DNA from: a virus
DNA length: 38,007 bases
Reading direction: 5' to 3' (one strand)
Virus record (IMG/VR): IMGVR_UViG_3300006638_000010
Coordinates: 1 to 38,007 of that record
Position 1 is the first letter of the stretch; every line of letters starts with the position of its first letter. The notes under the pieces are model-generated. The model searched no databases. It was given only the letters and a program-made list of their open reading frames with translations, and had not been told where the DNA came from. A program made the position numbers and the translations under genes. This document shows, in pieces, positions 5,155 to 38,007 of the stretch.

Positions 5155-5157
5155 GGC

Positions 5158-5603: not shown

Positions 5604-6608
5604 TTAGCTCAGAGCCGTCTCAGTGTTCGAGATTTGATCGACGCGCCGTACAGGCACACCGTCAAACGATAGGATGTGTTTACCCATCACTTCCTCGAAG
5701 TTCAACCGAGCGTTCGTCTTATTCGCCATTTGCCGGCGAAGGAACGATTTGATGGTCTTGTTGCAATAGAAGACGGGAGATCCCATCTGTTTTGCAGGCA
5801 AGATTTCAAACGCTTGAACCATGAGATCAATCAAGTTCGCCCCGGCGCTCGCATCTTTCGTCAATGCGGTCACGTCGATGTTGGCGATGCGGACTTGGAA
5901 ACGCCAGTCGCGCACGGTCAATCCGCAATCCCATTTGTAGTGGGTACGGTATCCCTGGTATTTGCCAGGAGGGGTCTGATTGTCCCAGAGAGTTTGCTCT
6001 CCAAGATCCCGGTGCTGGAATCCGCCAATCGATCCTTTGGGATAAATTCCAAAGGCTGTCTCAGGGCCCCAGTGAACGAGCCATACCGAGGTATTGGTCG
6101 CTCCGCGTCCGCCGCCGTCCAAGACGTTTGCCTTGGTTCGGAAGTTTCCGGTCAAGCCAGGATAGCGAGGCGAGAATCCGGTGATCTTCTCGGAGTTAAC
6201 CGATTGATCTCCGTAGAACAGGGCATTGGCCAAAGTCTGGTTCATGCCTTCCAGCTGCCCGCGATCTTCGGACAAGCGCCATTCCGCTGAATTTCCATTC
6301 AGGTCGGCAAGGTCTTTGTCGATTTCCGCATAGGCTTCCAGCATCCCGCATGTGTCGACGATCTGCGCGGTGGTGCTTTTCGACGGCTGAACGCCGTAGT
6401 TAAGCTTGCGCCAGGTCGGAGTCGGAAGACCGGTACGGATGGTCGTCTTTTCTCCTGTGGGGAGGTTTCCCTCTTTCCAGAGCATGTCCTCTAGAATTTC
6501 GTTGTACTGCTCCATGATCTCAGCGATCAAGGCGATTTTGCCATCCGGGTCTAAGCGGCGAGCCAGATCCAGGAACGTTTGATACAGTGGTCCACCAAGT
6601 GTTGCCAT
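5604..6608 (-). CDS. Major capsid protein
   Basis: The 334-residue protein starts MATLGGPLYQTFLDLARRLD. It contains ILEDMLWKEGNLPTGEKTTI, the 'P.w..ln.G' segment TPTWRKLNYGVQPSKSTTAQ, and later YCNKTIKSFLRRQMANKTNA and FDGVPVRRVDQISNTETALS. The final 'f.g.pvr..D.i..tE..v' is the usual end of podovirus capsid proteins of the BPP-1 Bbp17 type (HK97 fold). It lies after the scaffold gene and before the cement gene, as expected. It has a strong ribosome binding site (AAAGGAGAAACACAATG). Confidence 0.9.
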   Translation of the reverse strand: MATLGGPLYQTFLDLARRLDPDGKIALIAEIMEQYNEILEDMLWKEGNLPTGEKTTIRTGLPTPTWRKLNYGVQPSKSTTAQIVDTCGMLEAYAEIDKDLADLNGNSAEWRLSEDRGQLEGMNQTLANALFYGDQSVNSEKITGFSPRYPGLTGNFRTKANVLDGGGRGATNTSVWLVHWGPETAFGIYPKGSIGGFQHRDLGEQTLWDNQTPPGKYQGYRTHYKWDCGLTVRDWRFQVRIANIDVTALTKDASAGANLIDLMVQAFEILPAKQMGSPVFYCNKTIKSFLRRQMANKTNARLNFEEVMGKHILSFDGVPVRRVDQISNTETALS

Positions 6609-7884: not shown

Positions 7885-8081
7885 TTACCCTGCATCGGAT
7901 AAACCTTTGAAGCGTCCATCCCCGGCATCGGAGGCGCCTGAGGCGACTGTTGGCCCTGCTCGTTTTCCATCTGTTCCGACAAGCTCATCAATTCCGCGAG
8001 TTTTTCTTTGCCGAGCTTCTTGGCGGCCTCAGCCATGAGGCTCTTGTACTTGATCTGATCTGCGGGTGATAACGGCATCAT
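7881..8081 (-). CDS. Small protein downstream of portal, unknown function
   Basis: The product has 66 residues: MMPLSPADQIKYKSLMAEAA, KKLGKEKLAELMSLSEQMEN, then a Gln/Pro-rich tail QQSPQAPPMPGMDASKVYPM. It is a helical hairpin with a disordered end. It overlaps the portal gene upstream and the 29-residue peptide downstream by ATGA each, so it is translationally coupled to portal. The tail composition matches the Pro/Gln-rich end of the portal protein, so a virion or assembly role is plausible but not shown. Confidence 0.75.
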   Translation of the reverse strand: MMPLSPADQIKYKSLMAEAAKKLGKEKLAELMSLSEQMENEQGQQSPQAPPMPGMDASKVYPMQGK

Positions 8082-9856
8082 TGCCCTCCTGGTGCTGGCG
8101 CTTGCGGCTGCTGCGCGTTCGGCTGCCCGCCGCCCAATCCGGCCATCACTTGATCCAGTGCCGAGTTTTGGCCCACGGGCGTCTGAGATAGTGTTTTCGC
8201 GCCTTCCGTCATGCGCTCGGCAGCCTGAGCCTGTTCCTGAGCCTGCTGCTTCTTAGCCCTGTCCGCACGTATGGCCTTGATATCGTCATCGCTGCGCACC
8301 AACTCTGGCGGAGCGCCCACCATGTCCATGTACTTCTTGGCGGTTTTGTCCGGGTCAATGTTATCGGCCACTTCTGGATAGACTGATACGAGCGAGCCGA
8401 CGAAGCGTAACCCCTGCTCAATTGACGTGGTTCCTACCATCTTCTGCGCCTGCGCGAGTGTCGAGATATATTCGACCTTCAGCTCATGGCCATGTAAGTC
8501 AACGGGCGGCGGAGGGATGACTCCGGCGCGAAGGCATAGGTTAAAGATACGGTCAATCGACGGGTCAAGCAGCTCGAACTCTAAAGCTTCAATGACAGGG
8601 CCAAGCATTTGAAGCTTTTCCTCGTGCCGCTCTACGATCTCTCGTGCGGTCACGGCGGGCCTGTCATCGGAGATCATCATTTTGAACAGGTCGACGTAAA
8701 AGTTCCTGTCAATGCGCGTTTCAACAATCTGAATCATTGCGGTTATCGCGTTAAAATCGGGCTGGATCTGATAGACAGGTTTTACTCCGGCGCTCGGCGT
8801 TGTGCTGGTATATCGCGTGAGCCCGCCCGGGAGAGTGTTTACGGCGTCGACATTGGCGTCCGCCTGCGTTGGAGGGTCAACAACCTTGTCTAAAGCTTTG
8901 AGTTTGTCCTTTTCCATCTTCTGAAGCATCTTAGAGTCGCCGAGCGCTTTCCAGCCAGGCGATCTTCCGTAGGTATCGGCGGTTGTTGTGATCTGCCACC
9001 GCGGACCCTGGACCGGCATCTCCTGGTATCCGGACACGCGAGCAGCGGTATCGGACGGGCTGGATTCTTCCCACGTCACTGATCGGAACTTCATACCCCT
9101 GAAATCTTTACGGTCTTCAATGCGGTCATCGTTCGGTTCAATCAAATGCCGCATCAAGCGCCAGGCGTCGACATTGTTCTGCTTGTACGCCGATTGCACA
9201 AACTGAGAGCAGTTCTCATACCCAAACTCTTCTACGATCTGCCCGACCGTCATCCAATACTGCCGCGCAAACGCATTGATTCGATTGTCCGGCCCGTTAC
9301 CAAGGAAGTATTCTCCGATCGTAAAGTTGCGGCCGCGGATAACGCTCTTATAATCCGGGAGAATGATCTCGGCGCCGGTCCCAAACCCTCCGATTTCGGC
9401 ATACAGGTTGTGCCAGGTCTGGTACATATTCGACTTGGCCAGGACCGCATAGAGCCGTTCCATCACTTGCGCGAGCCATTCCTTGACCGGCTGGAACTCA
9501 GAAAGGTCGGGATCGGTCGTACCAAGCTGAAACCAGGGCCGCATCGGAGTCGTCATGCCAGACGCCATGCCAGCCGCCATCGTGTCCAGGGCGTCCATCG
9601 CGTGAGAATTGATAATCCTCTCGTGATCGATACGCTTGCCCCAATTTGGATTTTCGTATTCGAACATGCCGCGAGTCGGAGCTATCTCGTCACGGATCTC
9701 CCGCCACGCTGGGCGCCATTTCCAGCCTTCAATGCGAAGTCGGTCCCAGCGCTGATTGGTTGCTTTACGGTCAAATTTAACCGCTGACCCCGTAATCTGC
9801 ATAGGAGTCTTGCCGTCTTTCTGAGCGTTTCGGTCGTCTTGAATTGAGATAGCCAT
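8078..9856 (-). CDS. Portal (head-tail connecting) protein
   Basis: The 592-residue protein has RWDRLRIEGWKWRPAWREIR, then DEIAPTRGMFEYENPNWGKR, then ALDTMAAGMASGMTTPMRPW. This is the start of the podovirus head-tail connector family (PF12236 type): '..r.pf...w.ei.....P.rg', and 'a...La.gl..g.t.P..pWf.l'. Later MMISDDRPAVTAREIVERHE is the family's 'vTAtEi..r..E' helix, and the C-terminus is Gln/Ala/Pro-rich. Twelve copies form the DNA gate at the capsid vertex. It lies one base after the 125-residue gene and two genes after the terminase. Confidence 0.93.
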   Translation of the reverse strand: MAISIQDDRNAQKDGKTPMQITGSAVKFDRKATNQRWDRLRIEGWKWRPAWREIRDEIAPTRGMFEYENPNWGKRIDHERIINSHAMDALDTMAAGMASGMTTPMRPWFQLGTTDPDLSEFQPVKEWLAQVMERLYAVLAKSNMYQTWHNLYAEIGGFGTGAEIILPDYKSVIRGRNFTIGEYFLGNGPDNRINAFARQYWMTVGQIVEEFGYENCSQFVQSAYKQNNVDAWRLMRHLIEPNDDRIEDRKDFRGMKFRSVTWEESSPSDTAARVSGYQEMPVQGPRWQITTTADTYGRSPGWKALGDSKMLQKMEKDKLKALDKVVDPPTQADANVDAVNTLPGGLTRYTSTTPSAGVKPVYQIQPDFNAITAMIQIVETRIDRNFYVDLFKMMISDDRPAVTAREIVERHEEKLQMLGPVIEALEFELLDPSIDRIFNLCLRAGVIPPPPVDLHGHELKVEYISTLAQAQKMVGTTSIEQGLRFVGSLVSVYPEVADNIDPDKTAKKYMDMVGAPPELVRSDDDIKAIRADRAKKQQAQEQAQAAERMTEGAKTLSQTPVGQNSALDQVMAGLGGGQPNAQQPQAPAPGGQ

Positions 9857-12336: not shown

Positions 12337-12337
12337 C

Positions 12338-13634: not shown

Positions 13635-13638
13635 CGTT

Positions 13639-14725: not shown

Positions 14726-14819
14726 TTGTCCTCCTTAAATTCGCCGCCCCCGCGACTCCCATCGAAAAGGGCGGCTTAAACTAATGGCCCTGGCCTGGAG
14801 AATATGCCCAGACGCTCAT

Positions 14820-14923: not shown

Positions 14924-14933
14924 AGAAAATTCT

Positions 14934-16890: not shown

Positions 16891-16918
16891 AGACTGTTAA
16901 CGACGAATTGCGTTTTGG

Positions 16919-17287: not shown

Positions 17288-17517
17288 ATCGCGATCCGCA
17301 TTTGGCCTGACGTTTCACGCTCATAAAGCACGTACAAGTTTTCACTCGCCTTTTTACCCTTTCGCAGAACCAAGTCATAGCGTCCCTGCTTACGAAGGTC
17401 CGTTTTTCTTGCATTAAATTCGTGGCTCCAAGGTTCGCCGCTCATCAAGATTTCACGCAGCGTCGCCGCAGATCCTCGAAACTTAAACCAGGAAATGATC
17501 GATTCGATATGACTCAT
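17284..17517 (-). CDS. Early protein, possible winged-helix, unknown function
   Basis: The protein has 77 residues from ATG 17517: MSHIESIISWFKFRGSAATL, then REILMSGEPWSHEFNARKTD, LRKQGRYDLVLRKGKKASEN, LYVLYERETSGQMRIAI. 'G....tl.Eil...w..e...r.tdLrk.G.y.l' is the pattern of small winged-helix proteins of phages. GGTGAGTGATATG supports this start over the TTG at 17529. It couples directly to the resolvase gene by ATGA. Confidence 0.7.
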   Translation of the reverse strand: MSHIESIISWFKFRGSAATLREILMSGEPWSHEFNARKTDLRKQGRYDLVLRKGKKASENLYVLYERETSGQMRIAI

Positions 17518-17518
17518 A

Positions 17519-24842: not shown

Positions 24843-25439
24843 TCAGATCCCTGTCGGTGGAATAGGTGTCGGAGTCGAGAGAGACATTTCATAGAGTTGA
24901 TCCTCAATCGTCGAAATCATGTCAAGGCACGTATTCGTGTCAAACGTCGCCGTGGTCGTATTGACTAAATTAAAGTTCGTTGCCGCCGAACAAAGACTAC
25001 CTTCAAACCCGACGGACTTTTCTTCGACATGCTGTTGATAGGTCATGCCGTCCACAAACCCGTAAACATAGACGGTCGCTCCGAGCGAAAGCGACTGTTC
25101 AAGAGTCGTCGGAGGAGGATTGTAATTTGGATTCACTCCTAAAAGCGTAAGCTGATAAGTTCCGGCGAAGAGTGGATTGACGAATAGTGTTGACAGAAAC
25201 TGATTGGTGGTCGCGGCAATAAAGCTCGTCTCTAGTCCCCGAGGGGCGGAAGTTGAAGTTTGAACAACAGTATATGCTTGGGAATTGCCGACGAGCGTCA
25301 GGGATAAGACGAAACTTATAGCACTCGCACGCCACCATGTACTCCGCGAAATCGCTGAACCAAACCACGTGGACTCCTGTGCATCCGTCTTCCGATTTGT
25401 GGTATTCATAGTGATCTTCCTTTTCGTGTCCACATTCAC
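24843..25439 (-). CDS. Exported protein with overlapping start, unknown function
   Basis: The protein has 198 residues from GTG 25439, whose GTGA overlaps the DUF5675-like stop. A long polar, Arg-rich region precedes a hydrophobic segment AISFVLSLTLVGNSQAYT (about residues 40-57) with a likely signal peptidase site after QAYT or SQA. The mature part is beta-rich (ATTNQFLSTLFVNPLFAGTY, LGATVYVYGFVDGMTYQQHV) with two Cys that may pair, and a Pro/Thr tail. The n-region of about 40 residues is unusually long because it is read through another frame that codes a Cys-rich protein. Confidence 0.65.
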   Translation of the reverse strand: MNVDTKRKITMNTTNRKTDAQESTWFGSAISRSTWWRASAISFVLSLTLVGNSQAYTVVQTSTSAPRGLETSFIAATTNQFLSTLFVNPLFAGTYQLTLLGVNPNYNPPPTTLEQSLSLGATVYVYGFVDGMTYQQHVEEKSVGFEGSLCSAATNFNLVNTTTATFDTNTCLDMISTIEDQLYEMSLSTPTPIPPTGI

Positions 25440-25470
25440 ACAATGTCCCTGATTTCAATAGTGATTCCAT
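25099..25470 (-). CDS. Cys-rich 'CGH' zinc protein overlapping in another frame
   Basis: From ATG 25470 (GGGACAACAACATG) the frame reads MESLLKSGTLCECGHEKEDH, YEYHKSEDGCTGVHVVWFSD, FAEYMVACECYKFRLIPDAR. C-x-C-G-H, H, C, then CEC-x-x-F is a recognisable small phage zinc protein layout, and such proteins usually end near CxCxxF. The frame stays open to 25099 over the exported protein gene, but only about the first 60-65 residues look meaningful. Either two genes overlap, or an indel joined them. Confidence 0.5.
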   Translation of the reverse strand: MESLLKSGTLCECGHEKEDHYEYHKSEDGCTGVHVVWFSDFAEYMVACECYKFRLIPDARRQFPSIYCCSNFNFRPSGTRDELYCRDHQSVSVNTIRQSTLRRNLSAYAFRSESKLQSSSDDS

Positions 25471-25825
25471 GTTGTTGTCCCAATAGTGCGTAAAGTTGAT
25501 TGAACGGAATTAGAGATTGGTCAATCGAGTCCCCGTCCACCGCGGTACCCACGGCGATACAGCCTTCGAGTTGCGCCGGGAAGTTCGCCCAATGGATACG
25601 AATACCCGCATCACCGCCAGCGGAAAGATCGCGAGAAGACACAAGAATATGAGGCATGATTCGATTAAAGTGAGGAGAATAGTTAAAATCGATTTCATAG
25701 ATTCCTTTTGGGATCGCTTTGTTTAAATTCTCAAGCGTCACGCATGTAAACGGATTCCAATCAAGGGTCATCGCGCCAAAGAGGCCGTCGATAGACTTTG
25801 ACTGACGCTGAACGATAATATTCAT
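25436..25825 (-). CDS. DUF5675-like protein
   Basis: The 129-residue protein starts MNIIVQRQSKSIDGLFGAMT. It contains FTCVTLENLNKAIPKGIYEI, DFNYSPHFNRIMPHILVSSR and GIRIHWANFPAQLEGCIAVG. 'G.l........tLE.......IP.G.Y.......sp.f....p.l.........iriH.gN.......GCi.vG' is the DUF5675 signature, found in phage lysis regions and other bacterial systems. The conserved His and Cys (IHWAN..., EGCI) recall L,D-transpeptidase-like folds, so cell-wall action is possible but unproven. It is coupled by ATGA to the upstream gene. Confidence 0.85.
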   Translation of the reverse strand: MNIIVQRQSKSIDGLFGAMTLDWNPFTCVTLENLNKAIPKGIYEIDFNYSPHFNRIMPHILVSSRDLSAGGDAGIRIHWANFPAQLEGCIAVGTAVDGDSIDQSLIPFNQLYALLGQQHGITIEIRDIV

Positions 25826-26034
25826 CTTGGTGTCCCCCGCTGATCCAAACCTTTGAGTTCATCCCATTCGCAGTAATCGGTCCATTTGCATATTGAGAAA
25901 TCGGAACAGGTCAATTTAAATGTTCCCCCGCCCCACCGTTGGGCCATTACCGCGCTATCTCTTTTCTTACGTTGACAGTCAGGGCACAAGGCATCAATCG
26001 GGAATCGGCGTTTAAAATAGTCGTTATCAACCAC
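25822..26034 (-). CDS. Zinc-ribbon-like protein
   Basis: The protein has 70 residues from GTG 26034, one base after the upstream TGA, with GGCGGTGG before it. It reads VVDNDYFKRRFPIDALCPDC, QRKKRDSAVMAQRWGGGTFK, LTCSDFSICKWTDYCEWDEL. CPDC, TC and ICKW/YCEW provide four or more ligands. A longer in-frame start at 26115 was rejected because it would run back over 80 bases of the membrane protein gene. The family is not recognised. Confidence 0.65.
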   Translation of the reverse strand: MVDNDYFKRRFPIDALCPDCQRKKRDSAVMAQRWGGGTFKLTCSDFSICKWTDYCEWDELKGLDQRGTPR

Positions 26035-26035
26035 G

Positions 26036-26311
26036 TCATTTCCACCGCCTTGCGGCAAATGCCTTATCAATGCGGTCGGCAATCCTGTCAAGAGACGCCG
26101 AGATACGGTTGTCAAATTCCTTGTGTTCGGTCTTGGTCATAAACACGACATGAACGAGAGTTGTTAGCGTCTCAGCTTTCGTATAGGCTTCATTGGCTTT
26201 GCTTTTTATTTCCTTAATATCTTCAACAACCCTGTTGCGCTCGGAGCTTAAGTACAGGACCCACCCTCCGAAACAGATGCCTAGCAGCCACTTTAGGATT
26301 TCAATGCTCAT
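26036..26311 (-). CDS. Membrane-anchored coiled-coil protein (lysis-associated candidate)
   Basis: The 91-residue protein has an N-terminal span ILKWLLGICFGGWVLYLSSE (about residues 5-24). A long charged coiled coil follows (VVEDIKEIKSKANEAYTKAE, EFDNRISASLDRIADRIDKA). This layout, one N-terminal membrane helix and a coiled coil, is seen in i-spanins and in small phage membrane proteins near lysis genes. It overlaps the 991-residue gene by ATGA. Its exact role is not shown. Confidence 0.7.
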   Translation of the reverse strand: MSIEILKWLLGICFGGWVLYLSSERNRVVEDIKEIKSKANEAYTKAETLTTLVHVVFMTKTEHKEFDNRISASLDRIADRIDKAFAARRWK

Positions 26312-29283
26312 TGTGTCTCCTGTACTTCTTGAGTTCCCGAAGCCAAAACAGCGCTACCGGATGAAAGATAACTGATCTGCACCAAATGGTTTCCTTGCCT
26401 CTTATCACCCGCCACCTGGCAGGGCGACGTCGAACAGGTGTTCGATACGACTGTCCCATCTGGCCGCGTCAAGCTCACCATCACTTGTGTGGCATTCGGG
26501 ACACTTGAAAGTTTGAAAGCGACGTTGATGGGAGCGCTTGAAAACGCTACATGCCCGCCAATGCGCCAGGCCACTTCGTTGTCACTGGCGGGCGCGCCGA
26601 AAGTCTCTCCGAAGTTCTTGCCCAAGTTCCCTGTGATATAGGCTCCTGGCGTACAAGGCGCGGGGCTTCCGGTACTGCAGTTTGGCGCTGAAGCGATTGT
26701 GTCTCCGATATACCCATCACAAGAAGGACCCACGCACGTCGCCGCAAATCCTCCTATTCCTGTATTGCTATCAGGACCGCTGGCAGGGCCGCCCAAGGTC
26801 GCCGAATAACATTCGTCGCCCCATGTCTTATAGGTGGTTGACCCTGTCGCCATGTAAAGCCATCCCATCGCCCCGCAGCCGGTGCGCGTCAAGTTCCGAT
26901 CTCCCGTACTTCCGAAGCAGTACGTGGCCGATGAATTACAGACGGATGACGGACTAGGCGCAACGGAATAACTGCTGGAAACAACGTTTGAAGATTCGCC
27001 GTAAAGACCGAAAGCGGGCGTGATCGTTATGGCGGTATCGCTTGCACAGGAAGCAATTTTGTAGACGGTATACGATGTTTCAATTCCGATGAAATGAAGA
27101 CCGTCGCAATATCCTTTTGTGTTAAAAGCGGTTCCAGATCCCGTGAGAGTTGTGGTTCCGACATTGACAGACACAAAACCGCCTGGCCGATAAACCGTCT
27201 CCTGATCGCTTGATTGGCTGTTGACTTCATAAAAGTGACCACGGTCAACGTTGTCCCTGCCATAGTTCTCGACCCACGCTTCTGCATTTTGGATGGCCGT
27301 TAACGCCAGACCCGCCACAGTCGCGCTACTGCACCCCTGAGCGCTCGTGTCATTCAATGATTCGTATGCGGCTTCCATAGACTTTAAGTTGATTGCTTCC
27401 CGCCAAGGAGCGCCACCATAAATAAACGGAGCCGAAAACGCTTTTGGGGCCGAGACATAGCTTTGATTGTTAACGTATGCATTTTCAGGCCAGCTTCCGT
27501 CTGCCGCCTGGACTCTTGACCACGTATAGGTATAAGTCGTCAGCCACGTACAATACTGCGAATGGCGCGTAGGATCTGGGTCTGTCTTTGCTCCGAGCGC
27601 GATGTTCCATAGCTCGTACCCCGACTCGCGGTTATCAATAGCAGGGCTGTAACTCGGATTGGCCCAGCGCGGAACTTGAAAGGCGATCCAGTTATATAGC
27701 CCTGGAAACCGTTCTGGATGACCATCTAAAGCCCGAAAGAATTGGCTCACCATAGTCGATGCGCGTGGCGATACGGATCGATAGCCATGATCTAATGTCC
27801 ATTGCCACTCAATGTCGGCAAACTGACGGGCATAGGATTGGAAAATGGCGTTTCCGGTTCGATAGTAAAGCCGGTAAAGACCAATCGCTACGTCGTAGTA
27901 GTTCCAGACGGTCGACGGGTTTTCTGTTGTCCAGGCCTGAAAATCAAGACCGAGCGGCGCGGCGGTCGAAGGGAGCATGTAGGCCGTCCATCCAGCGAAA
28001 GCAGGTTCTTCGGAATTTTCCTGGCAAATAATTTGAGTTGAATTTACGCTTGAGATGGGGCAGAGCATCCGTCCTGTCCCTACCCCGTCAACGCTATCCC
28101 ACGCGACCGCGACCCACGATTGAGTTGACAACAGCGTCGAAAGGTCTGAGGTGGTATTGATGATATTGCCAGCCGTATTCGAATCAAACGAAACGGTTCC
28201 AGGAAGAGCCGATCCGAGACCAGGAGGAACAGTCAACGCGACCGCTCCGATATTTTTACCGACTCCAATTTCAGCCAAGTCGGCATAAGGCCATGGGTTG
28301 GCTTTTGCGTCGGCAATGAGAAGAGGCCCTAAAAGGTTGTCCTGGATCGCCGAGAGGCCCGTGACGGCCACGGAGTTTGAGTCTGTAGCAACCGCGCTCA
28401 CGACGGAAGTCGTCGAAGCACAAAGGCCAGACGTATTGCACCCCTGTACTTGTACGCCATACGTTCCAGCGATAGGCACTGAAAAAGAAGGTGCTGACGA
28501 GGTATGGCTCGAAAATGAACCAACGGCTGGCCCTGAAAGCTGTTGCCAGAAATAGGAGAGTGTTGAGTTCTCCGTCGCATCATAAGAGCTATTCACTATC
28601 GGAAGTGACGACCCCGCCTTAAAAACGTTTGTGATCGGCCATGGATTAAACCCGACGATGGGATTGTAAATAGGCGTCGTGACGTAAGACGCACCTGATG
28701 GAGTCAAGTTCAAACCAAAACCTGAGCAGTCGTTCATATTCCCTTCTAGCTCATAATCGGTTTCGGTCGCCGTACAAATAGCGTTACTAATGGGTGTTGT
28801 GATGGGAACAGTCGATATATAAGTACGAACCCAAGCAATATCGCCAGCGTCAAGAGGGCCTAGAGTGACTCCGCTACTCGCGTCGGTGGGTGTTCCTGTC
28901 GAAGAATTGGGACATAGGTTTGTAAATTCCTGGCCTGTTTGTGTGATGGTGTAAGAGGCCGTTAGCCCTGCAACGGTGCGCTGAAATCGGACAAGGACAT
29001 CCGTTCCTGCAGGGGGGACGACTCCACACGTATTAGAACCGTCTAACCAGGACGTAAAATTAACGAAGCCATTAAAGATACGAAGATCGTAATCGGTTGT
29101 CGAATAAATGTACTGCTGAGTCTCTTCGTAAAGCCATGATCCATGCAACCGAAACTCCACCCGCCAGTTGGCGACGTTGTTATAAGGCGCTCCGCTGCCC
29201 GCTGTCCCGCTTCCAGATCCGGCGCTAAGAGATTGAGAAGCGTAAGCGGGAACGGATAGAAGAAGGAGGAATAGCCATTTCAT
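26308..29283 (-). CDS. Exported multidomain protein with PKD-like and alpha-toroid-like domains
   Basis: The 991-residue protein starts MKWLFLLLLSVPAYASQSLS, a clear Sec signal (cut after AYA). It has a beta-rich N-terminal region, a PKD/Ig-like domain at about 215-300 (DATENSTLSYFWQQLSGPAV, FSVPIAGTYGVQVQGC), and a helical, Trp/Tyr-rich region at about 450-720 (WNYYDVAIGLYRLYYRTGNA, QFADIEWQWTLDHGYRSVSP). The helical region resembles the (alpha/alpha) toroid of polysaccharide lyases and some glycosidases. An inserted beta module follows (TLTGSGTAFNTKGYC), then a C-terminal Ig-like domain. Many Cys suggest disulphides. It is probably a polysaccharide-active surface protein, but no catalytic motif is proven. 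Confidence 0.72.
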   Translation of the reverse strand: MKWLFLLLLSVPAYASQSLSAGSGSGTAGSGAPYNNVANWRVEFRLHGSWLYEETQQYIYSTTDYDLRIFNGFVNFTSWLDGSNTCGVVPPAGTDVLVRFQRTVAGLTASYTITQTGQEFTNLCPNSSTGTPTDASSGVTLGPLDAGDIAWVRTYISTVPITTPISNAICTATETDYELEGNMNDCSGFGLNLTPSGASYVTTPIYNPIVGFNPWPITNVFKAGSSLPIVNSSYDATENSTLSYFWQQLSGPAVGSFSSHTSSAPSFSVPIAGTYGVQVQGCNTSGLCASTTSVVSAVATDSNSVAVTGLSAIQDNLLGPLLIADAKANPWPYADLAEIGVGKNIGAVALTVPPGLGSALPGTVSFDSNTAGNIINTTSDLSTLLSTQSWVAVAWDSVDGVGTGRMLCPISSVNSTQIICQENSEEPAFAGWTAYMLPSTAAPLGLDFQAWTTENPSTVWNYYDVAIGLYRLYYRTGNAIFQSYARQFADIEWQWTLDHGYRSVSPRASTMVSQFFRALDGHPERFPGLYNWIAFQVPRWANPSYSPAIDNRESGYELWNIALGAKTDPDPTRHSQYCTWLTTYTYTWSRVQAADGSWPENAYVNNQSYVSAPKAFSAPFIYGGAPWREAINLKSMEAAYESLNDTSAQGCSSATVAGLALTAIQNAEAWVENYGRDNVDRGHFYEVNSQSSDQETVYRPGGFVSVNVGTTTLTGSGTAFNTKGYCDGLHFIGIETSYTVYKIASCASDTAITITPAFGLYGESSNVVSSSYSVAPSPSSVCNSSATYCFGSTGDRNLTRTGCGAMGWLYMATGSTTYKTWGDECYSATLGGPASGPDSNTGIGGFAATCVGPSCDGYIGDTIASAPNCSTGSPAPCTPGAYITGNLGKNFGETFGAPASDNEVAWRIGGHVAFSSAPINVAFKLSSVPNATQVMVSLTRPDGTVVSNTCSTSPCQVAGDKRQGNHLVQISYLSSGSAVLASGTQEVQETQ

Positions 29284-31397
29284 TTGAAGGTCACAACACC
29301 CTTCATTTGACAGGTTCCCGTGAAGGTTTCCGTCGTCGACGTTGTCGTCGCAACAGCCGCAATCTGAAGGAGTGATTCGCGGGTTGTTTCCCAGCTGTTA
29401 AGATTTTCATTCCATGGCCGAGGGCCATATGAATAACTGCAATCGCCCATTGTAAAGCATTGACGTTTGTACATGACATCTTGCACTTGTTGATTAACCA
29501 AGGCCGTGGTCGATGACGGATTGACGGCATAAGCCGCATTAATAATGTCCACGTCCTGAATACCGCGCGTGAGTTGATTAAGCCGCCAGGAACCAATAAC
29601 GCCGTTAAAGCCATAGCTCGGGCTGGCGTAAACCGTGTCGGTGGATGGATAAAGCATGTTCCCGTCGCCGTTCGAGAAGCCAAACCCTAAATGACCTTTG
29701 ACGGGATCTGTGGAAGGATAGGAATCGTAACCGAAATCCTTCGCGAGATTGAACATATTGTTATCGTTGGCGGCGTTGGCGTTCCATCCGTTATTGGTTT
29801 GTCCGCTGTTATTGGAATCATTCCAGTAGTTTATTTCCCATAGAAACCAATACTTCTGGGACGTTGCATAGGCTCCCCACATAACCTCGCGTGGTCCGAG
29901 TCCTTCCTCTTGCATATTAAAAAGCGAATCCGTCCCTGGCCCTCCGGCATTGTATCCGCCCGCTGAATGCGTCGAGCTAGTGTTGTAAAGAGATTCCGCT
30001 GTTACCCATGTCGCAGACGAATACTCAAGCCAGCTAGTACTAAGAACGGTATTGACGTAAGGCGCGGACGATTCAACCGTCGGGAGCGTTCCGGTCTGTA
30101 AAAACGGGAGCCTATGCCCGCCATTCGCGCAAGCGGTTGCAGTGGACGACCACGTTGAGAGCGTATTGACCTCGCCGCCTAAAATCGTCGTTGAAGCTTC
30201 ATCGTTTGACGTATAGAGTTGGCAATTCAGGTTATTGTTTTGGCAATAGTACGTCCAAGAACTGACGTTGTCGCAGTAGCCCGTTGACCCGTTTGTTACT
30301 GTGGTCGTACTCCAATTGACGCTCTGCCAGCCGCCATAGGTCCCGACCATATAGAACTTGTCGCCCGCGCCTGCCCCTGGCCCGTTACCGTATCCGTAGG
30401 TAGGCGTATAAGCTGTCCCGTCAATGAACTTGGAATAGAGGGCAGACGGATAATCTTGCGTAGAAGCGGGCTGATCGCCAATGGCAATAATTTTATGACG
30501 ATGCAAGAAAGCTCCGACACGAAGGGAATTTGTCAAATAAGGATCTGCAAAATAGCTGGTCGGAAAGCGCGTCCCTGTCAGACGCATGGACAGATCCGCA
30601 AGCCCTAAATCAGCAATGACGGGAAGCGTGGCTGTTCCTGGGAGCGTGACGTTGTATACCAAGAGACTTATGGGGATCGTCGTTGATACGGAAACCCCTT
30701 CCGTCACGGTTAAAGTAGCTGTATAAGTTCCAGCAGGAAGCGCCGTTGAAATATAGACTTCTCCGCCAATCGCCTGAGAAGACGAAGCCGAAACCGTGAA
30801 ACTTGAAATCCCGAACTCTTCTATAGGCACAGCGGGATCAGGATAAAACTTGTCGTGATCCGCGCGGTCTGTCCAGAGCGTACCACCATTGGGAATGGAA
30901 TCATTATTCCCGTTTAAAGTGGAAGGCCGTCGCCACCGTGGGGCTACTTGTTGAGAATCGTATTCGGACGGGTCCCAAGCTTGTCCGTGCTGTCCCATTC
31001 CGACAAGTTGGAGGTAACTGTATTTATAGAGGCTGTAAGGCCGCGTCGAATAATCCCACACGTTTGAACTTGAAACAGCGACTGCCGAGAACCCTGACCC
31101 TAACGCGGTCCCTGTTCCTGTAAAGCTTGAGATAGACACCATGACATTCGTCGCATCCGCTGTTCCTCCGATGAGATAGGTCGCCCACGTTAAAAGTTCG
31201 CCTTTCCCGCCAAAGAGTTTTATGGTTGTTCCGTCCCAGCATCGGCTGATTGTGTTGGTCGAGAAGTTTCCTGGATACTTATCTTCCCGCGCCATCTTGT
31301 AATCGCCAGACTCTGACCACGTGGCGCTCGATATAAGGTTACCGGCAAAGGCCGTCGAAGTTAAAAAAAAACAACCGATCAGGATAAATCGTCTCAT
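29280..31397 (-). CDS. Exported glycosidase-like protein (DUF4091/GH123-like C-terminal domain)
   Basis: The 705-residue protein starts MRRFILIGCFFLTSTAFAGN, a Sec signal cut after AFA. A beta domain at about 30-230 ends in AGTYTATLTVTEGVSVSTTI. A TIM-barrel-like region contains GPREVMWGAYATSQKYWFLW and EINYWND. The end has FGFSNGDGNMLYPS, then IGSWRLNQLTRGIQDVDIIN. 'R...W......g..g.LyW..n.w' followed by 'nGdG.l.YP......SiRl...R.GieD.e.l' matches what I know of the DUF4091/GH123 group. It probably cleaves host polysaccharide. It overlaps both neighbours by ATGA. Confidence 0.72.
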   Translation of the reverse strand: MRRFILIGCFFLTSTAFAGNLISSATWSESGDYKMAREDKYPGNFSTNTISRCWDGTTIKLFGGKGELLTWATYLIGGTADATNVMVSISSFTGTGTALGSGFSAVAVSSSNVWDYSTRPYSLYKYSYLQLVGMGQHGQAWDPSEYDSQQVAPRWRRPSTLNGNNDSIPNGGTLWTDRADHDKFYPDPAVPIEEFGISSFTVSASSSQAIGGEVYISTALPAGTYTATLTVTEGVSVSTTIPISLLVYNVTLPGTATLPVIADLGLADLSMRLTGTRFPTSYFADPYLTNSLRVGAFLHRHKIIAIGDQPASTQDYPSALYSKFIDGTAYTPTYGYGNGPGAGAGDKFYMVGTYGGWQSVNWSTTTVTNGSTGYCDNVSSWTYYCQNNNLNCQLYTSNDEASTTILGGEVNTLSTWSSTATACANGGHRLPFLQTGTLPTVESSAPYVNTVLSTSWLEYSSATWVTAESLYNTSSTHSAGGYNAGGPGTDSLFNMQEEGLGPREVMWGAYATSQKYWFLWEINYWNDSNNSGQTNNGWNANAANDNNMFNLAKDFGYDSYPSTDPVKGHLGFGFSNGDGNMLYPSTDTVYASPSYGFNGVIGSWRLNQLTRGIQDVDIINAAYAVNPSSTTALVNQQVQDVMYKRQCFTMGDCSYSYGPRPWNENLNSWETTRESLLQIAAVATTTSTTETFTGTCQMKGVVTFK

Positions 31398-32131
31398 TGA
31401 TGGTTAAACGCCGCTTGTGCCGCCATCCAGTCAAAAGGACTTGTTTGGTTCCATGTCGAAATATAAACCGTAGAAGTAGGAATATTCGCGTCTTGAGCGT
31501 AGAGGTATGGGTTTGCCCCTCCTGCATAGCGGGAAGTGCCTGTTTGCGATGTAATGGCTCCTGATGCATCGGCCCAAGCAATAGAGAACATCAATTCATT
31601 CGTTCCTGTGGTTGTCGCCGCAAGCGTAGTTAGGGGATTAATACCCGTGGCTACAGGAGCACTTGCACTAAAAACGTCAAAGGTTGTTGACGTATTTTGG
31701 CCGCTGTATTCAGCCAGGACGCAATAATTGACTCCGTTGCATCCGCCCGTTGCCGCTGTGACGGTTGTTGCTCCCCCTACGGCACTTTTCACATACCAGA
31801 TTCCAATAAAGTTAGAACCTGTGATGCTAGATCCAGCGGTCAGCCATGAATCACTGGCATCTGTAGGTGTAATCCCTGAAAAGTTGGCTGTGGTTGCGCA
31901 CCCCAAAACCAGAAGATCACCTGCCGCGACCGTGATCGTGTTCAAGACAGACCCGCACCCTCCGTCAGTTGATGCCGTCGAAGTGGCTTGAACAAACGCA
32001 AGGGGTGATCCGCCACCCGCCGCCGCCGTCCCTGACGAAAAGGTGATGGTCCCGAGCGGCGCGAAGGACGTCGTGATCGTGCCCGCGTGAGCCACGCCAG
32101 CTAAGAATAAGAGAGCGAGTAGTTTTTTCAT
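31394..32131 (-). CDS. Exported beta-sandwich adhesin-like protein
   Basis: The 245-residue protein starts MKKLLALLFLAGVAHAGTIT, a textbook signal peptide cut after AHA. The mature part is beta-rich: TVAAGDLLVLGCATTANFSG, SDSWLTAGSSITGSNFIGIW, YVKSAVGGATTVTAATGGCN and YCVLAEYSGQNTSTTFDVFS. 'D..g......s........wY...a.gG..tvt.........v.EysG........' is a module seen in bacterial and phage surface proteins, where it may bind glycans. TAATG couples it to the fibre gene upstream. Confidence 0.75.
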   Translation of the reverse strand: MKKLLALLFLAGVAHAGTITTSFAPLGTITFSSGTAAAGGGSPLAFVQATSTASTDGGCGSVLNTITVAAGDLLVLGCATTANFSGITPTDASDSWLTAGSSITGSNFIGIWYVKSAVGGATTVTAATGGCNGVNYCVLAEYSGQNTSTTFDVFSASAPVATGINPLTTLAATTTGTNELMFSIAWADASGAITSQTGTSRYAGGANPYLYAQDANIPTSTVYISTWNQTSPFDWMAAQAAFNHQ

Positions 32132-35100
32132 TATCGTATCCTTCGGGCAGATAATCGTCCTACCGCATTGGGCGTGGCGATGCTGAAAGAGGCTTTGTAT
32201 TTTAGATAGTAAGTCTTAGAAGCCGTCAAAGAAACACGGAAGTTAGGGATAGAAGCAAAGGTGTCGGTTGCCGCCGTAGGGCCAAGCGAGTTTACGAGGC
32301 TATCTCCTTCAATGAGTCCTGCGGCTGAATTGCCAGTCGTTGAAGAGATCCCGACCGCCATCGTGGTGACGGTAGCTCCGTTGCCGATAGACCCTAAAAC
32401 AGCGGTCAAGTCCCATTCTCCAGCCGTAACAGTCGTAGAGACTAAATCACCGTAATTGCCTGTAGTGGGAAACGCTACGGCGACAGGTGCGGCTGTTGAA
32501 ATGTATTCACCGATAGAGCCAGAGATCGCATTTCCTCCTGACGTGGTTCCCATCGAAATTGGGAAAGTGACGCTAGAAGCCGTTACGGAACTACCAGCGT
32601 AATTGAAGTAAACACCTATTGCCGTAACAGTAGAAACGTTCGACTGAACCACCTGACTCATGTTCGTCATCGTGATCGTGGTCCCGTTGTTCGTGAAGTT
32701 CGCGGAACTTGTGATGACGTTTGAAGAAGACAGGGCCATATACCCGATCTGATATTGAGGGGTCACGTTTACCGTCCCAGAACCGGACCCTCCGCCACTG
32801 CCGCCGCTACCACCGCCCGTACCCGTCGAATAGGTTACGGTCCCGTTCGTGCTTGAGACAACCAGGTAGTCGCCAATGATCGGCGTGGTACTGGCACTCA
32901 CAACGCCGTAGGTCGATGAATTGATCGTGAGTTGGATCGCGCCGTTGCCGGAGCCTGTGACGACTACCGTTGCGTTGGTCGTTATAGCCACACTATTCCC
33001 GCCGACGGTCGCCGTCGAGAAATAGCCTACGTAGGCGTTAGACGTACTGCCCACGACTTTAAGCTGAGTGTCCGTGTCGGTATTGGTCCCGATCACCACA
33101 TTCCCCGCGCCTGTGACGCGCATCGCCTCAATCTGCGTTCCGGCATTGACAGGATTGATCGTGATGTCCGCTGTAGGCGAGCCACTCCATGTCGTTGAAA
33201 TGCCTTCGATAGATCCTAAAAGTTCCTGCCGATTGACATCCGTTCCATAGAAATCGTAAGCCACCCCTAATCCTGCGCTTGCGCCGCCGCTGGATCTTGC
33301 GTCGGCCGCAATGGCATGTCCTACGCCTCCTGTAACGATTCCGACATCCCATGGATCTACTGGAACGTTCGTCGAACCCGCTCCAAGATTTATCCCGCCA
33401 TTAGCCGTGGACCCTTCCATCGATAGAGTCAGGGCATTATTGTAAACAGGAGAGCCACTAAGGAAAGTACCTCCCAAGAATAAACGATAGGTAGAGCCAT
33501 AGGCTCCCCCCGTTGTAACGTTGTCGGGTACAAAGGTTTCATATCCGACGGATAAAGGACCGACATCAAATTGGGTTTTATAGTTGACCTCCACGCCTTC
33601 GCCTTGCGCCAAAGTGCCGGAGCTTGCTCCGATAATATTCATGGCCGTAATAGGCACTCCGTTAAGAGGAGAGGATGACGTAACGACTAATGGGATTCCG
33701 GTCCCCGTGACCGTGACGGTTGCGCCGTTGAATTGGAAATTGCTAGACCCCGCAAAAGAACCAGAATTGTTATATTGGATTTGGTTCGTAGATCCCCCTG
33801 GAGTTCCAGACCCACCTCCGCTTCCCGATCCACTGCCACCCTGAATGATCCATCCTGTCGAAGAAGGACTGCTGAGACAGACCGTCAGAGGATCGCCCGT
33901 CGTGATCGCACCCGTTGAAAGAGCCGCACCGTTAAAACCAAGGATAGACTTAGATCCGAGCGTGTCTACGTTCAAAGTCGCCGTCGAGAAGGACACATTG
34001 TTTGTCGAAGTGACCACCGTCAGGCACATCCCTGTGGTGTAGGCCGTCAGTGTCGGGTTCATAGAGCAAGCAAACGTTGTCGAAGCGCCAGAGGCATAGC
34101 AGAGCCTATCCGTGTTCGCCTGGTCTGTCGCGCGAGCGAGCATGACGGCGGTATCGGCCGAATAGGTGAGGCTGACATTGTTGGCCGTCGGAGTCGATCC
34201 CGAAACGAGGAGGCCCGTTCCAGGAATGAAATTGAAGTTGGTCGTTTGAGCCGAGAGCGTCGTTCCGTTGAGTTGAACGGTGGTCGTTGACGAACCGCCG
34301 CCCGATCCGCCCGTGACGGTAGTGCTGATTAACTGACCGAAAGAATTGGTCGCTAGAATCGTATTCGGTAAAGCAGGGATCGTCAATGTCCCGACATAGA
34401 GACCATAGGTAAATGTGCTGACCTGCGGAGCGGCATCAAAAAAAGCACCGTTCAGAATATAGGCTCCATAATTTGTTCCTGTTCCTGCCGAATTTAAATA
34501 GGCAGCATAGCAGGTAGATGGACCTGAGCAACTGGCATTAATACCTTGAGCATAAGTATTTCCAGAAAATGATGTCCCATTGAAAAACGCTCCTACGGAA
34601 GTGCAAGTTCCGTTTTCGCAAGTCGAATTTCCATTGATCGCGCTCTGGAGTCCGTGAGTATTAGAAGAGTTTACCTGGACGTAAAGAAGAGAATCTGCCG
34701 CATTGACATCCGCAGGGCCAGTCAAATACATCGTGTAGCCAGTCCCGTTATCCCACCAACCAGCCCCCACATTTGATGTCCCTGCTGTAGTCCCTATTTG
34801 CGTAGTCGTTATGCCTCCGCTACTGGCAATGAGAAACGGTTTTATCGTGTTGCTTCCCAATCCAAGAGGAGAAAGATTGTAATTTTTGAGGTAGGGTAAA
34901 TTTAACTGAGAATTCACCGTCCCGCTCGACACATAGAACGTCGCGCCGGATTGGAGGGTGGAAGTGTTGTTTATTGTTGCACTGGCGAGATTAAGCGTTA
35001 CAGACCCCGACGTTCCGCCGCCAGTTAATCCTGTTCCGGCCACAACTCCCGTGATAGTTCCGACGCCTTTTCCATTGACCTGAGACTGCAAGGAGTTCGT

Positions 35101-36345
35101 GCTGACGTTCAAGGCGCCAGTCGACACGGCGATGGAATTGGCCTGATTCTGAAGCGTTACCGTTGATGCTGAAAGAGATGTCGTCGAAACCGCTAAGAGA
35201 TTTTGATTTGTCTGAAGCGTCGCCAGGCTGATCGTATTGCCTTGGGCCGTTATGCTTGAAGTGTTAACTCCCAAAAAGAAGGTCGTTGATCCTTGAAGCG
35301 ATCCAGTTAGAGTATTGCTATCGACGACAATATTTGACGTGGGACTCGATACGATAATTGAGTTAGATGCAGAGCCCGTCGAAAGTGCCAAGGATGATGT
35401 CCCGCCGCCGCACCCGACATTGACAACCTTCCCCGTCGCGTCCGTTGTTATACATTGCGCCGGGGTGAGATAGGGAAGTTGGAGTGCCGTTCTATACGTT
35501 CCGCTCGATATATTGGAAGTGGCCGTTTGTGCGTTTGATCCATTAAAAATAAACTGTGTTGTCGAAATAATTATTGATCCGTCCGGCATCGTGTATCCGT
35601 AATTCGGAGAATTTACGGGACCAAATAAAGTGGTCACACCGTTAACGCTAAGTTTCGCGGTATCGGTGATATCGCCATTCGTTGTAAAGCCATTAGGAAA
35701 TATGGCGCCGGTGGCATTTAAAGAAGTGACTGTTAGGCTGGAAACGGTCATCGTCGATGACGTAACTGGCCCTATGAGAGTGATCCCATCGTCTCCTTCT
35801 ATGGTCAATTTTTGTTTCCCTGTCGCTCCATCGTTCCAGATAGCAGCACTCGTGTTATTGGCAGCGTTATCAAAATATTGCACAGCCCCAGCCTGCATTT
35901 CGGTTGCACCGCCAACCTTCAAACCCCCGACGATGTCCGCTACATTTGTCTGGAAAGAAGAAACAAATAAAGACTGATCGGTAGGGTCATACCTGAAATT
36001 AGTGTAATCGCCAGATACCGCATTCGATGATCCCGTGACAGAATAATAGGGAACTGCCAGTTTAGTAGCATTATTGATCGTTCCGTTTGGGCCTCCGCCT
36101 CCACCACCGGAGAGACAAGAAATGCTTATGACGGTTCCTGTTCCATCGGTAGTTAGGCATTGCCCAATGGTTAAATAGGGCAATTTAAGACCTTGTGCGA
36201 TGGTCCCATGCTGAACATAGAACGTCGATGGAACTTGCAAGAAGTTCTGATTCAGGATCGGCGCGCCGCCAGGGGGTCCGACGGGACCCCCCAGGGCGAC
36301 ACTCGATAATCCTGCGATGAGAAGGGCTGTTTTAAATAATCTCAT
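32131..36345 (-). CDS. Giant tail-fibre-like protein with Sec signal peptide
   Basis: The 1404-residue protein starts MRLFKTALLIAGLSSVALGG, a probable signal peptide, then GPVGPPGGAP. A module 'TFYVxxGTxxxxLxLPYL' occurs near residue 41 and again near 480. 'LPYLTxxQCxTTDxTGxVVxxxC' occurs near 55 and 295. Gly/Ser linkers (GGGGGG, GSGSGSGGGSG) separate domains. GVVAGTGLTGGGTSGSVTLN, VVIGTNTDTDTQLKVVGSTS and a C-terminal beta domain (WDLTAVLGSIGNGATVTTMA, ASKTYYLKYKASFSI) are typical of phage fibres. A fibre with its own export signal is unusual, as virion proteins normally assemble in the cytoplasm. Confidence 0.8.
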   Translation of the reverse strand: MRLFKTALLIAGLSSVALGGPVGPPGGAPILNQNFLQVPSTFYVQHGTIAQGLKLPYLTIGQCLTTDGTGTVISISCLSGGGGGGPNGTINNATKLAVPYYSVTGSSNAVSGDYTNFRYDPTDQSLFVSSFQTNVADIVGGLKVGGATEMQAGAVQYFDNAANNTSAAIWNDGATGKQKLTIEGDDGITLIGPVTSSTMTVSSLTVTSLNATGAIFPNGFTTNGDITDTAKLSVNGVTTLFGPVNSPNYGYTMPDGSIIISTTQFIFNGSNAQTATSNISSGTYRTALQLPYLTPAQCITTDATGKVVNVGCGGGTSSLALSTGSASNSIIVSSPTSNIVVDSNTLTGSLQGSTTFFLGVNTSSITAQGNTISLATLQTNQNLLAVSTTSLSASTVTLQNQANSIAVSTGALNVSTNSLQSQVNGKGVGTITGVVAGTGLTGGGTSGSVTLNLASATINNTSTLQSGATFYVSSGTVNSQLNLPYLKNYNLSPLGLGSNTIKPFLIASSGGITTTQIGTTAGTSNVGAGWWDNGTGYTMYLTGPADVNAADSLLYVQVNSSNTHGLQSAINGNSTCENGTCTSVGAFFNGTSFSGNTYAQGINASCSGPSTCYAAYLNSAGTGTNYGAYILNGAFFDAAPQVSTFTYGLYVGTLTIPALPNTILATNSFGQLISTTVTGGSGGGSSTTTVQLNGTTLSAQTTNFNFIPGTGLLVSGSTPTANNVSLTYSADTAVMLARATDQANTDRLCYASGASTTFACSMNPTLTAYTTGMCLTVVTSTNNVSFSTATLNVDTLGSKSILGFNGAALSTGAITTGDPLTVCLSSPSSTGWIIQGGSGSGSGGGSGTPGGSTNQIQYNNSGSFAGSSNFQFNGATVTVTGTGIPLVVTSSSPLNGVPITAMNIIGASSGTLAQGEGVEVNYKTQFDVGPLSVGYETFVPDNVTTGGAYGSTYRLFLGGTFLSGSPVYNNALTLSMEGSTANGGINLGAGSTNVPVDPWDVGIVTGGVGHAIAADARSSGGASAGLGVAYDFYGTDVNRQELLGSIEGISTTWSGSPTADITINPVNAGTQIEAMRVTGAGNVVIGTNTDTDTQLKVVGSTSNAYVGYFSTATVGGNSVAITTNATVVVTGSGNGAIQLTINSSTYGVVSASTTPIIGDYLVVSSTNGTVTYSTGTGGGSGGSGGGSGSGTVNVTPQYQIGYMALSSSNVITSSANFTNNGTTITMTNMSQVVQSNVSTVTAIGVYFNYAGSSVTASSVTFPISMGTTSGGNAISGSIGEYISTAAPVAVAFPTTGNYGDLVSTTVTAGEWDLTAVLGSIGNGATVTTMAVGISSTTGNSAAGLIEGDSLVNSLGPTAATDTFASIPNFRVSLTASKTYYLKYKASFSIATPNAVGRLSARRIR

Positions 36346-36358: not shown

Positions 36359-37993
36359 TCAGGTCGCTCCGTTCTTTTGGTAAACAACCACTGAGTAATT
36401 AACCGATCCTGTCGTCGGAGCGCCGTATAAGATCCTCAGATACCGCCAGGGCCAATAGCCTATCGCCCATGTCGTCGTTCCCGCTGCCCAGGGCGTTGCC
36501 AACGATATAGGCGTAATGCTCACCCCGTTTTCGATGGATGTGACCGACGCGAAGTTTACTCCGTCGTTGCTGGCCTGAAGCGAAAACATGGCCGACCCCG
36601 AGATAGGAGCATTTGTCAGCGTGAACGTGTCCGCACTTGTTTTCGTCTGTGAGGATGTTATGACGATCCCTAATCCCGCCGCAGAACCAGTTGACGTTGT
36701 CGCTAATGCGAACTGATTGGCATTTATAGCGATCGCGTAGTAGGTCGTGTTAAGAGCCAGGGGAGACAACGTTACACCGGCCGCTGAGAGATAAACCGGC
36801 ATCCCTGTCGTAAGTCCGTGGTTTGTGACGTTGATCGGCGCCGTTCCAATCGTATACGCCGAGGACGTCCCGCCGAAACTCGTGCCGGCCGCAATACCCG
36901 TCAATGTGCTGCTTGACGTGAATGGCGAGAGCGTAAGAACCGCCTGCGTAGAAGAGGCGATCGCATACCCAGGTCCGACAGCCGTCGCCGTCGCCGTCAC
37001 GACGTTTGATATCGCCTGCGCGGTGAACCCGAGCGTCGTGCTGCTGTTATTGATGGCGGCAGCAATGGAAGTCGCTAAGTTCGCCGTTGTGGAGCTAGCC
37101 AATGGCGGAGCCCACGCGATTCCTGTGGTCAGGATGTAATTGCCGATCTGGATAGACCCGGCGTTTTGGCCCAGGGCTGACGTGTTATTGGCCGTCAATG
37201 CGCCGGTAGAGGTAGAGAATACGTCTGCATTCCCCCAGGCGCCGGCTTTGTTGGCCGTGAATGTGACGACTGTCGCCGCGGTTGTGGCTGCCGTGATCCC
37301 GTATCCACCCGTTGCGTTCCATCCGTTAGCGATACTAACCGCCGTATTGCTGGAATACGTGGGGTCCGCGATCCATTGCTGACCCTGCGTTAACGTGACA
37401 GTGGAATTAACGGATGGGTTAAAGTAGGAGATGACAGCATTATCTACGCCGCCCGTAAATGCTCCCGCGGGCATGGCCGCAGAAGTCGAGCTTGTGATCG
37501 TCCAGCTATTGGCGAAACTGCCCGCCATGTTTGCCGTGAGCGTAATAGACGAGCTTCCAACAGGACTCACCGCCGCTATAAGACCGGAGACAGAGTTTGA
37601 CGCGTAGCCCGTGAAACTGGCAATCGCCTGATTCATCTTGTAGTTGATGCTGGCGGCCAACGCTATAGCCGTCGCGTTAGACGAAGCTCCTACCTGATAG
37701 TCCGTTCCTCCGACAAAGGTAAACGTGGTCTGTACGACATTCCCGCCGGTCGGAATAGACACTCCGATAGTAACGGTCGAAGCGTTCAGTGCCGCGGTCG
37801 AATTGGACGAGATGTTAAGCGTAGCTGCCGCTTTTGCGGCGATTAGCGCGGAGTCTATCGAAACCGTAATTGTATCCTTATCAGCGATTCCGACCGTTGA
37901 CGCCGTAGAAACGACCGTTACCGAGAACGTCGAAACGCTGCCGTCTTTAAACGAAACCGCCGGGACCGTGGCGGATGCGTAATTAATCTGCAT
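36359..37993 (-). CDS. Repetitive structural/adhesin protein (start possibly outside window)
   Basis: The protein has 544 residues from ATG 37993, but the frame stays open upstream to the window edge (GAC CTC ATC GGG ATG), so it may be an internal Met of a larger protein. It is Ala/Ser/Thr-rich, with three related modules: ATAIALAASINYKMNQAIAS with SSITLTANMAGSFANSWTIT; AVSIANGWNATGGYGITAAT with VVTFTANKAGAWGN; and NLATSIAAAINNSSTTLGFT with VVTATATAVGPGYAI. The C-terminal domain FSLQASNDGVNFASV ends with WPWRYLRILYGAPTTGSVNY, as in phage structural proteins. No signal peptide is visible. GAGGACCTAA before the next gene links it with the fibre gene. Confidence 0.75.
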   Translation of the reverse strand: MQINYASATVPAVSFKDGSVSTFSVTVVSTASTVGIADKDTITVSIDSALIAAKAAATLNISSNSTAALNASTVTIGVSIPTGGNVVQTTFTFVGGTDYQVGASSNATAIALAASINYKMNQAIASFTGYASNSVSGLIAAVSPVGSSSITLTANMAGSFANSWTITSSTSAAMPAGAFTGGVDNAVISYFNPSVNSTVTLTQGQQWIADPTYSSNTAVSIANGWNATGGYGITAATTAATVVTFTANKAGAWGNADVFSTSTGALTANNTSALGQNAGSIQIGNYILTTGIAWAPPLASSTTANLATSIAAAINNSSTTLGFTAQAISNVVTATATAVGPGYAIASSTQAVLTLSPFTSSSTLTGIAAGTSFGGTSSAYTIGTAPINVTNHGLTTGMPVYLSAAGVTLSPLALNTTYYAIAINANQFALATTSTGSAAGLGIVITSSQTKTSADTFTLTNAPISGSAMFSLQASNDGVNFASVTSIENGVSITPISLATPWAAGTTTWAIGYWPWRYLRILYGAPTTGSVNYSVVVYQKNGAT

Positions 37994-38007
37994 CCCGATG
38001 AGGTCAC

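Follow-up and report, generated by a model that had tools for sequence, protein, structure and literature searches.

Gene content of the window

The stretch analysed here, referred to as the window, is 38,007 nt long and corresponds to positions 1 to 38,007 of IMG/VR record IMGVR_UViG_3300006638_000010, a soil-type virus of bacteria. Judged by its capsid (phrog_212), portal (phrog_332), connector (phrog_394) and nozzle (phrog_376) families, which follow the gene order of epsilon15/phiV10-like podoviruses (Uetakevirus) and of Cobetia phage Carin1, the window is a fragment of an epsilon15/phiV10-like podovirus. In a capsid tree it groups with a relative of 69% identity (L004). IMG/VR lists the record as linear and both contig ends lie within the structural module, so that large internal virion genes, and possibly a conventional spike as well, are missing from the window. 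A second contig of 17.7 kb (IMGVR_UViG_3300025862_000027) is 100% identical to window positions 1-17717 and stops at almost the same base. The search for a host of the window phage found none and gave just more distant capsid relatives from one bacterial class. The genes considered here are the following:

1353..4112, minus strand: tail nozzle protein (TTB, phrog_376), which assigns the phage to the epsilon15/phiV10-like podoviruses
5604..6608, minus strand: major capsid protein (phrog_212), bait for relatives and for the tree
8078..9856, minus strand: portal (phrog_332)
25436..25825, minus strand: DUF5675 protein (PF18925, 1.9e-17), probable lysis-cassette member
25822..26115, minus strand: 97-aa ORF, overlapping the 91-aa ORF out of frame in a possibly Rz/Rz1-like layout
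26036..26311, minus strand: 91-aa membrane-type ORF, spanin/holin/lipoprotein-like, starting within the stop of the 991-aa gene (ATGA)
26308..29283, minus strand: 991-aa protein, predicted Sec signal aa 1-15 (window 29239-29283), 22 mature Cys
aa 235-294 of the 991-aa protein, minus strand: PKD-like domain, below cut-off
29280..31397, minus strand: 705-aa protein, predicted Sec signal aa 1-18 (window 31344-31397), 8 mature Cys
29538-29732, minus strand: C-terminal part of the 705-aa protein, weakly GH123-catalytic-like (sub-cut-off profile match)
31394..32131, minus strand: 245-aa protein, predicted Sec signal aa 1-16 (window 32084-32131), 4 mature Cys
32131..36345, minus strand: 1404-aa fibre-like protein, predicted Sec signal aa 1-19 (window 36289-36345), 12 mature Cys
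32134-32556, minus strand: C-terminal tip of the 1404-aa protein (aa 1264-1404), resembling phage tail fibres
36359..38007 (36359-37993 as called), minus strand: 544-aa ORF, Ser/Thr/Ala-rich repeat protein, 5' end lost at the contig edge

The initial annotation had described four consecutive, translationally coupled genes for proteins of 1404, 245, 705 and 991 aa. All four are present on the minus strand, and their coupling was found as well: the 1404- and 245-aa genes share one base (TAATG), and the 245/705 and 705/991 junctions are ATGA overlaps. An ATGA missing from that annotation also joins the 991-aa gene to the downstream lysis-type ORF (26036-26311). The run is probably longer than four, however. 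The frame of the 544-aa ORF is free of stops up to the contig end at 38007, and a homologue in IMGVR_UViG_3300032046_000103 (42% identity over aligned columns), which is the last large gene ahead of the lysis genes there, begins with MNKKLFIFILLCLTLAGVSKA, a predicted signal peptide. On these grounds the 544-aa ORF is probably a fifth signal-bearing member, its signal lying beyond the window edge, and the run probably comprises five or more such genes. A scan with the 544-aa family gave nothing beyond this homologue.

Signal peptides

Signal peptides were called with a home-made score for n-, h- and c-regions rather than with SignalP. For each ORF, core or accessory alike, we took the start codon with the maximal signal score at most 60 codons from the first start. 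At a score of 6.5, false positives amount to 0.7% of core phage proteins, 0.4% of internal 45-mers and 0.7% of shuffled N-termini. By this score, the four window proteins show the basic n-region, hydrophobic core and small residues at -3/-1 of Sec/SPI signals. Cleavage is predicted between MRLFKTALLIAGLSSVALG and G in the 1404-aa, MKKLLALLFLAGVAHA and G in the 245-aa, MRRFILIGCFFLTSTAFA and G in the 705-aa, and MKWLFLLLLSVPAYA and S in the 991-aa protein. The scores are 6.3, 8.9, 9.3 and 7.7, respectively, and shuffling of each protein's own N-terminus reached the real score in 1.4%, 0.08%, 0% and 0% of cases, the 1404-aa protein thus having the weakest signal. Score and shuffling nulls support the Sec-type signals that had been proposed for all four.

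Elsewhere among the tested window genes, only one scored above 6, a 125-aa membrane-type ORF between terminase and portal (9857-10234, minus strand; score 7.9), whose N-terminus contains a hydrophobic segment. If an internal start is permitted, a 154-aa ORF outside the structural module (15897-16361, minus strand) passes as well; its start is of lipoprotein type (MKTKLVLLCALLSLGAC), and a collagen-like stretch comes next.

Resemblance to known proteins

The C-terminal 140 aa of the 1404-aa protein share about 30-34% identity with the tail fibre of Enterobacter phage Mulvp2, which has no signal peptide, and with a huge-phage ORF. Together with its place before the lysis genes, as in phiV10 and Carin1, this homology to a tail-fibre domain makes it a candidate tail fibre or spike. 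The initial annotation had placed the run where podovirus fibre genes lie, in agreement with this spike-before-lysis order, and had read it as a fibre plus glycosidase operon. The fibre part of that reading stands through the 1404-aa tip and carbohydrate-active enzymes are probable, but the glycosidase is weakly supported: the 705-aa protein matched the GH123 catalytic model (PF13320) with 12.9 bits, below the gathering cut-off of 23.1, and over profile positions 267-322 only. The 991-aa protein matched PKD below threshold and a tail-fibre PHROG weakly. No relatives of the 705- and 991-aa proteins came up when each was scanned as a single sequence against viral, genome and phage collections, against PDB sequences and against 297 genomes from a single phylum, the sole PDB match being a PKD-like stretch with an E-value of 1.2. 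AlphaFold modelling of the mature 705-aa protein alone gave a pLDDT of 31. No further relatives of the four window proteins were found in the collections searched, and a motif search of the window ORFs gave no match to the virion-anchor domain of this phage family (YxGNGxTTxFPYxF).

Recurrence among relatives

Relatives were fetched with capsid profiles (80 + 80 viral loci and 43 genome loci); loci were oriented, ORFs called, core families tagged by iterated HMMs, and near-copies dropped at 80% identity. In this non-redundant set, 70/257 accessory ORFs of the structural module carry a signal peptide vs 4/547 core proteins (0.7%; Fisher p 5e-33). Signal-positive ORFs make up 50/133 of those between capsid and connector (MCP-TTA), 8/23 between connector and nozzle (TTA-TTB), 7/44 between terminase and capsid (terL-MCP) and 5/57 after the internal proteins. 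Arrays of 2-6 such genes occur, most of them in the capsid-connector interval, and show the 4-base overlaps also seen in the window; arrays of the type MCP, cement, four signal-bearing genes, connector are common in one soil clade. The pattern is common among soil relatives, where it is found chiefly at the capsid end of the module. It is not unique to this phage, a point missing from the initial annotation. Among the cultured or named controls phiV10, BPP-1, Shamal, Carin1, Vibrio 1.021 and vir555, none has a signal-bearing fibre or spike, and only lysis-type proteins scored positive.

On a quick capsid tree the signal label needs 18 changes vs 34 in shuffles, the number of changes being uncertain and all rates being lower bounds because short contigs without a signal gene were scored 'none'. 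The label covers 24/26 rows of one clade and 13/18 of a delta/Myxococcota-type clade and is scattered elsewhere, with the window among the scattered carriers. With the delta-type nozzle as profile, a scan returned a single locus. Pfam and PHROG matches of 45 proteins of the relatives include GH66 (2.6e-84), GH30, GDSL, M14, BNR and an outer-membrane barrel, furthermore tail protein, tail fibre and Hoc-like decoration, while the majority had no match. Several signal-bearing proteins of the relatives are presumably of tailspike type, as indicated by motifs such as WWGAKGxxTxDDTAAIQ.

Evidence for export

Folding in an oxidising compartment would be expected to pair the cysteines of the mature proteins and hence to give even counts. 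Mature cysteine numbers in the window are even throughout (12, 4, 8 and 22). This parity was first seen in the window set and was tested afterwards in relatives, the signal score being blind to cysteines of the mature part. The count is even in 53/62 signal-bearing accessory ORFs that have any mature cysteine (p 1e-8), and in 31/38 if one per sequence family is taken (p 1e-4), vs 63/128 (49%) of signal-less accessory and 166/363 (46%) of core proteins. Alanine occupies position -3 in 50/70 and -1 in 59/70 of the signal-bearing ORFs, which, unlike the parity, is partly built into the score. Signal peptides usually change fast in sequence while remaining signals; in a pair of 675-aa homologues, pN is 0.49 in the signal and 0.11 in the mature part, with the type of signal kept. 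From such sequence features, we are highly confident that export of these proteins is real. Late expression tied to lysis is also very likely.

Virion parts or free proteins

The family FAM7, encoded by the first ORF behind the cement gene, has a signal in one clade and lacks it in another at the same capsid-side place. Its signal-bearing members have a common cysteine pair at positions where the signal-less members have none, which would fit a gained export step rather than speak against export. The initial annotation had named signal-less homologues that are virion parts as evidence against its view. Such homologues exist in part, namely in FAM7 and in the signal-less tail fibre that shares the 1404-aa tip, but the FAM7 cysteine pair argues for export. 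In one FAM7 member (L187), the N-terminus is long and hydrophobic and shows no clear cleavage site. A PHROG search gave no useful match for FAM7, and its model is a jelly roll like that of uncharacterised tailed-phage proteins. Since the PDB matches (a plant virus coat as the best at Z 9.1, the HFTV1 turret at Z 8.0) reflect a common jelly-roll arrangement, a role as head turret is suggested by position more than by fold.

One relative, G769, is complete (44,082 bp, with a 66-bp overlap of its ends); apart from core genes, its late strand has just two ORFs above 220 aa, one for a tailspike-like protein of 620 aa and one for a protein of 541 aa, each with a signal. G768 resembles it, although its completeness is not confirmed by overlapping ends. 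G770 and G772 each encode a fibre with a signal (550 and 716 aa) beside a short conventional anchor protein that has none (314 and 316 aa). By contrast, Myxococcota/delta-type relatives and the complete G765 have a full conventional signal-less spike beside the signal-bearing genes, so that the signal-bearing proteins need not be receptor binders in these phages.

Proposed explanation and alternatives

We propose that the window run encodes late, Sec-exported, disulfide-containing appendages together with carbohydrate-active enzymes, which would be held in the periplasm until lysis and then act on virions or polysaccharide; we put the chances of this explanation as a whole at about even. The late-gene products would leave the cytoplasm via the host Sec pathway, lose their signal peptide and fold with disulfide bonds in the periplasm, where they may stay until the neighbouring lysis genes bring about rupture of the cell. 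At lysis or later, the fibre-like proteins (1404, probably also 544 and 245 aa) would encounter completed virions and attach to their outside as appendages, and the enzyme-like members (705 and 991 aa) may act with the fibres on surface polysaccharide. This proposal draws on the signal scores and their nulls, the ATGA coupling to lysis, the enrichment in relatives, the even cysteine counts, the fast-changing signal and the tail-fibre homology. Docking on virions, as opposed to free action, is a balanced call. It is supported by the position of the genes at the places of the head-spike base and depolymerase spike of Carin1, by the signal-less FAM7 homologues, by G769 with its lack of other fibre or spike candidates and by the anchor beside the fibre in G770 and G772. 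It is weakened by the conventional spikes beside the signal-bearing genes in delta-type relatives and G765, by the enzymes and the outer-membrane barrel of the relatives (GH66, GH30, GDSL, M14, OMP), for which there is no reason to be in a virion, and by the fact that a virion-anchoring domain was not recognised in the window proteins. As the window is a fragment, a conventional fibre may moreover lie in the missing part. The further notion that this phage lineage makes its head spikes, tail fibres and spikes via Sec and periplasmic disulfides and fits them at lysis, part of virion assembly thereby taking place outside the cytoplasm, is tentative and falls somewhat short of even.

The same export evidence also fits proteins that never become virion parts: freed at lysis or through type II secretion, they could strip or bind the polysaccharide of neighbours and debris for the spread of progeny, or block receptors. 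We regard this as possible, at clearly less than even chances. The enzymes and the OMP_b-brl barrel just mentioned, the conventional signal-less spikes that coexist in several relatives and the unrecognised anchor in the window all favour it, whereas the complete G769, the head-spike and tail-spike places of the genes, the signal-less FAM7 homologues at the same place and the tail-fibre tip domains speak against it. Lysogenic conversion, in which prophage-made proteins are displayed on or secreted by the living host and alter its surface or biofilm, is improbable. Some carriers are indeed prophage-like regions of the genomes of hosts (Bombella, Gluconacetobacter, delta/Myxococcota), and relatives offer an outer-membrane barrel and one protein with a weakly matched exosortase-type C-terminus, but both in the window and in the arrays the genes are part of the late operon and show translational coupling to genes of lysis or structure, and a non-exhaustive search recognised no integrase in the window.

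That the hydrophobic N-termini do not serve export, being uncleaved anchors or segments removed or buried during cytoplasmic assembly, is very unlikely; L187 of FAM7 would fit, but the alanines at -3 and -1 and the cysteine signature would not. Least probable of all is an artefact, through wrong start codons or the fusion of host genes for secreted proteins to phage sequence. The linear contig does end in the structural region, but the 991-aa gene overlaps the lysis-type ORF, composition is continuous and a like layout recurs in independent contigs and host genomes; a chimera with host DNA was rejected on lysis coupling, composition and recurrence.

Comparison with known systems

By the usual teaching, tailed phages are assembled in the cytoplasm and depolymerase spikes belong to the virion. 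The spike genes of phiV10 and Carin1, in Carin1 for a depolymerase spike, precede lysis like the window run, and the head-spike base of Carin1 lies between capsid and connector, where the signal-bearing arrays of the relatives mostly occur. However, spikes of epsilon15/phiV10-like phages and Carin1 start with the virion-anchor domain (YxGNGxTTxFPYxF) and have no signal, whereas the window genes carry predicted Sec signals and no recognised anchor. Soil phages carry secreted-type glycoside hydrolases as auxiliary genes; unlike these, the genes described here are coupled to fibre-like genes in a structural/lysis operon, and an enzyme domain was recognised in a minority of members only.

The mosaic adhesive trimer (MAT) fibres of Bdellovibrio are tail-fibre-like, have a signal peptide and lie outside the Gram-negative cell (PMC10769870). 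They are bacterium-encoded, serve predation and have a conserved beta-rich domain of ~130 aa after the signal, whereas the window proteins come from phage late genes. Exported phage endolysins (fOg44 Lys44, SAR endolysins) pass through Sec and are kept outside the membrane until lysis (PMC6116005), but are single lysis enzymes rather than an array of fibre-like and carbohydrate-active proteins. In the open-access literature we found no description of a phage with signal-bearing fibre or spike arrays, in line with the initial annotation, which is weak evidence of novelty.

Export tags on fibre-like and sugar-cutting proteins raise the question whether they mark a route to the virus or a role without it. 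In a widespread group of soil podoviruses, export signals and paired cysteines on such proteins would mean that either assembly is completed outside the cytoplasm or the phages have a secreted arm in their attack on host polysaccharide. For annotation, such genes are easily mistaken for host secreted proteins or auxiliary metabolic genes.

Further signal-bearing proteins of relatives

In prophage-like stretches of acetic acid bacteria, signal-bearing glycosidase-type proteins of 785 and 659 aa with a GH66 match lie in the connector-nozzle interval (L108/G033 and L136; Bombella). An outer-membrane beta-barrel-type protein with signal is encoded in L219 (1222-1935), L231 (4337-5135) and G768 (L300, minus strand); OMP_b-brl matched one relative with 5e-13, and in two the gene lies in the terminase-portal interval. 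A function as receptor decoy or exclusion protein is possible. Finally, a signal-bearing phage ORF in L226 (10636-11331) ends in VTPLPPALPLFAAGLLALLTLRR, an exosortase-sorting-like C-terminus with an NCBIfam match of 0.013 only.
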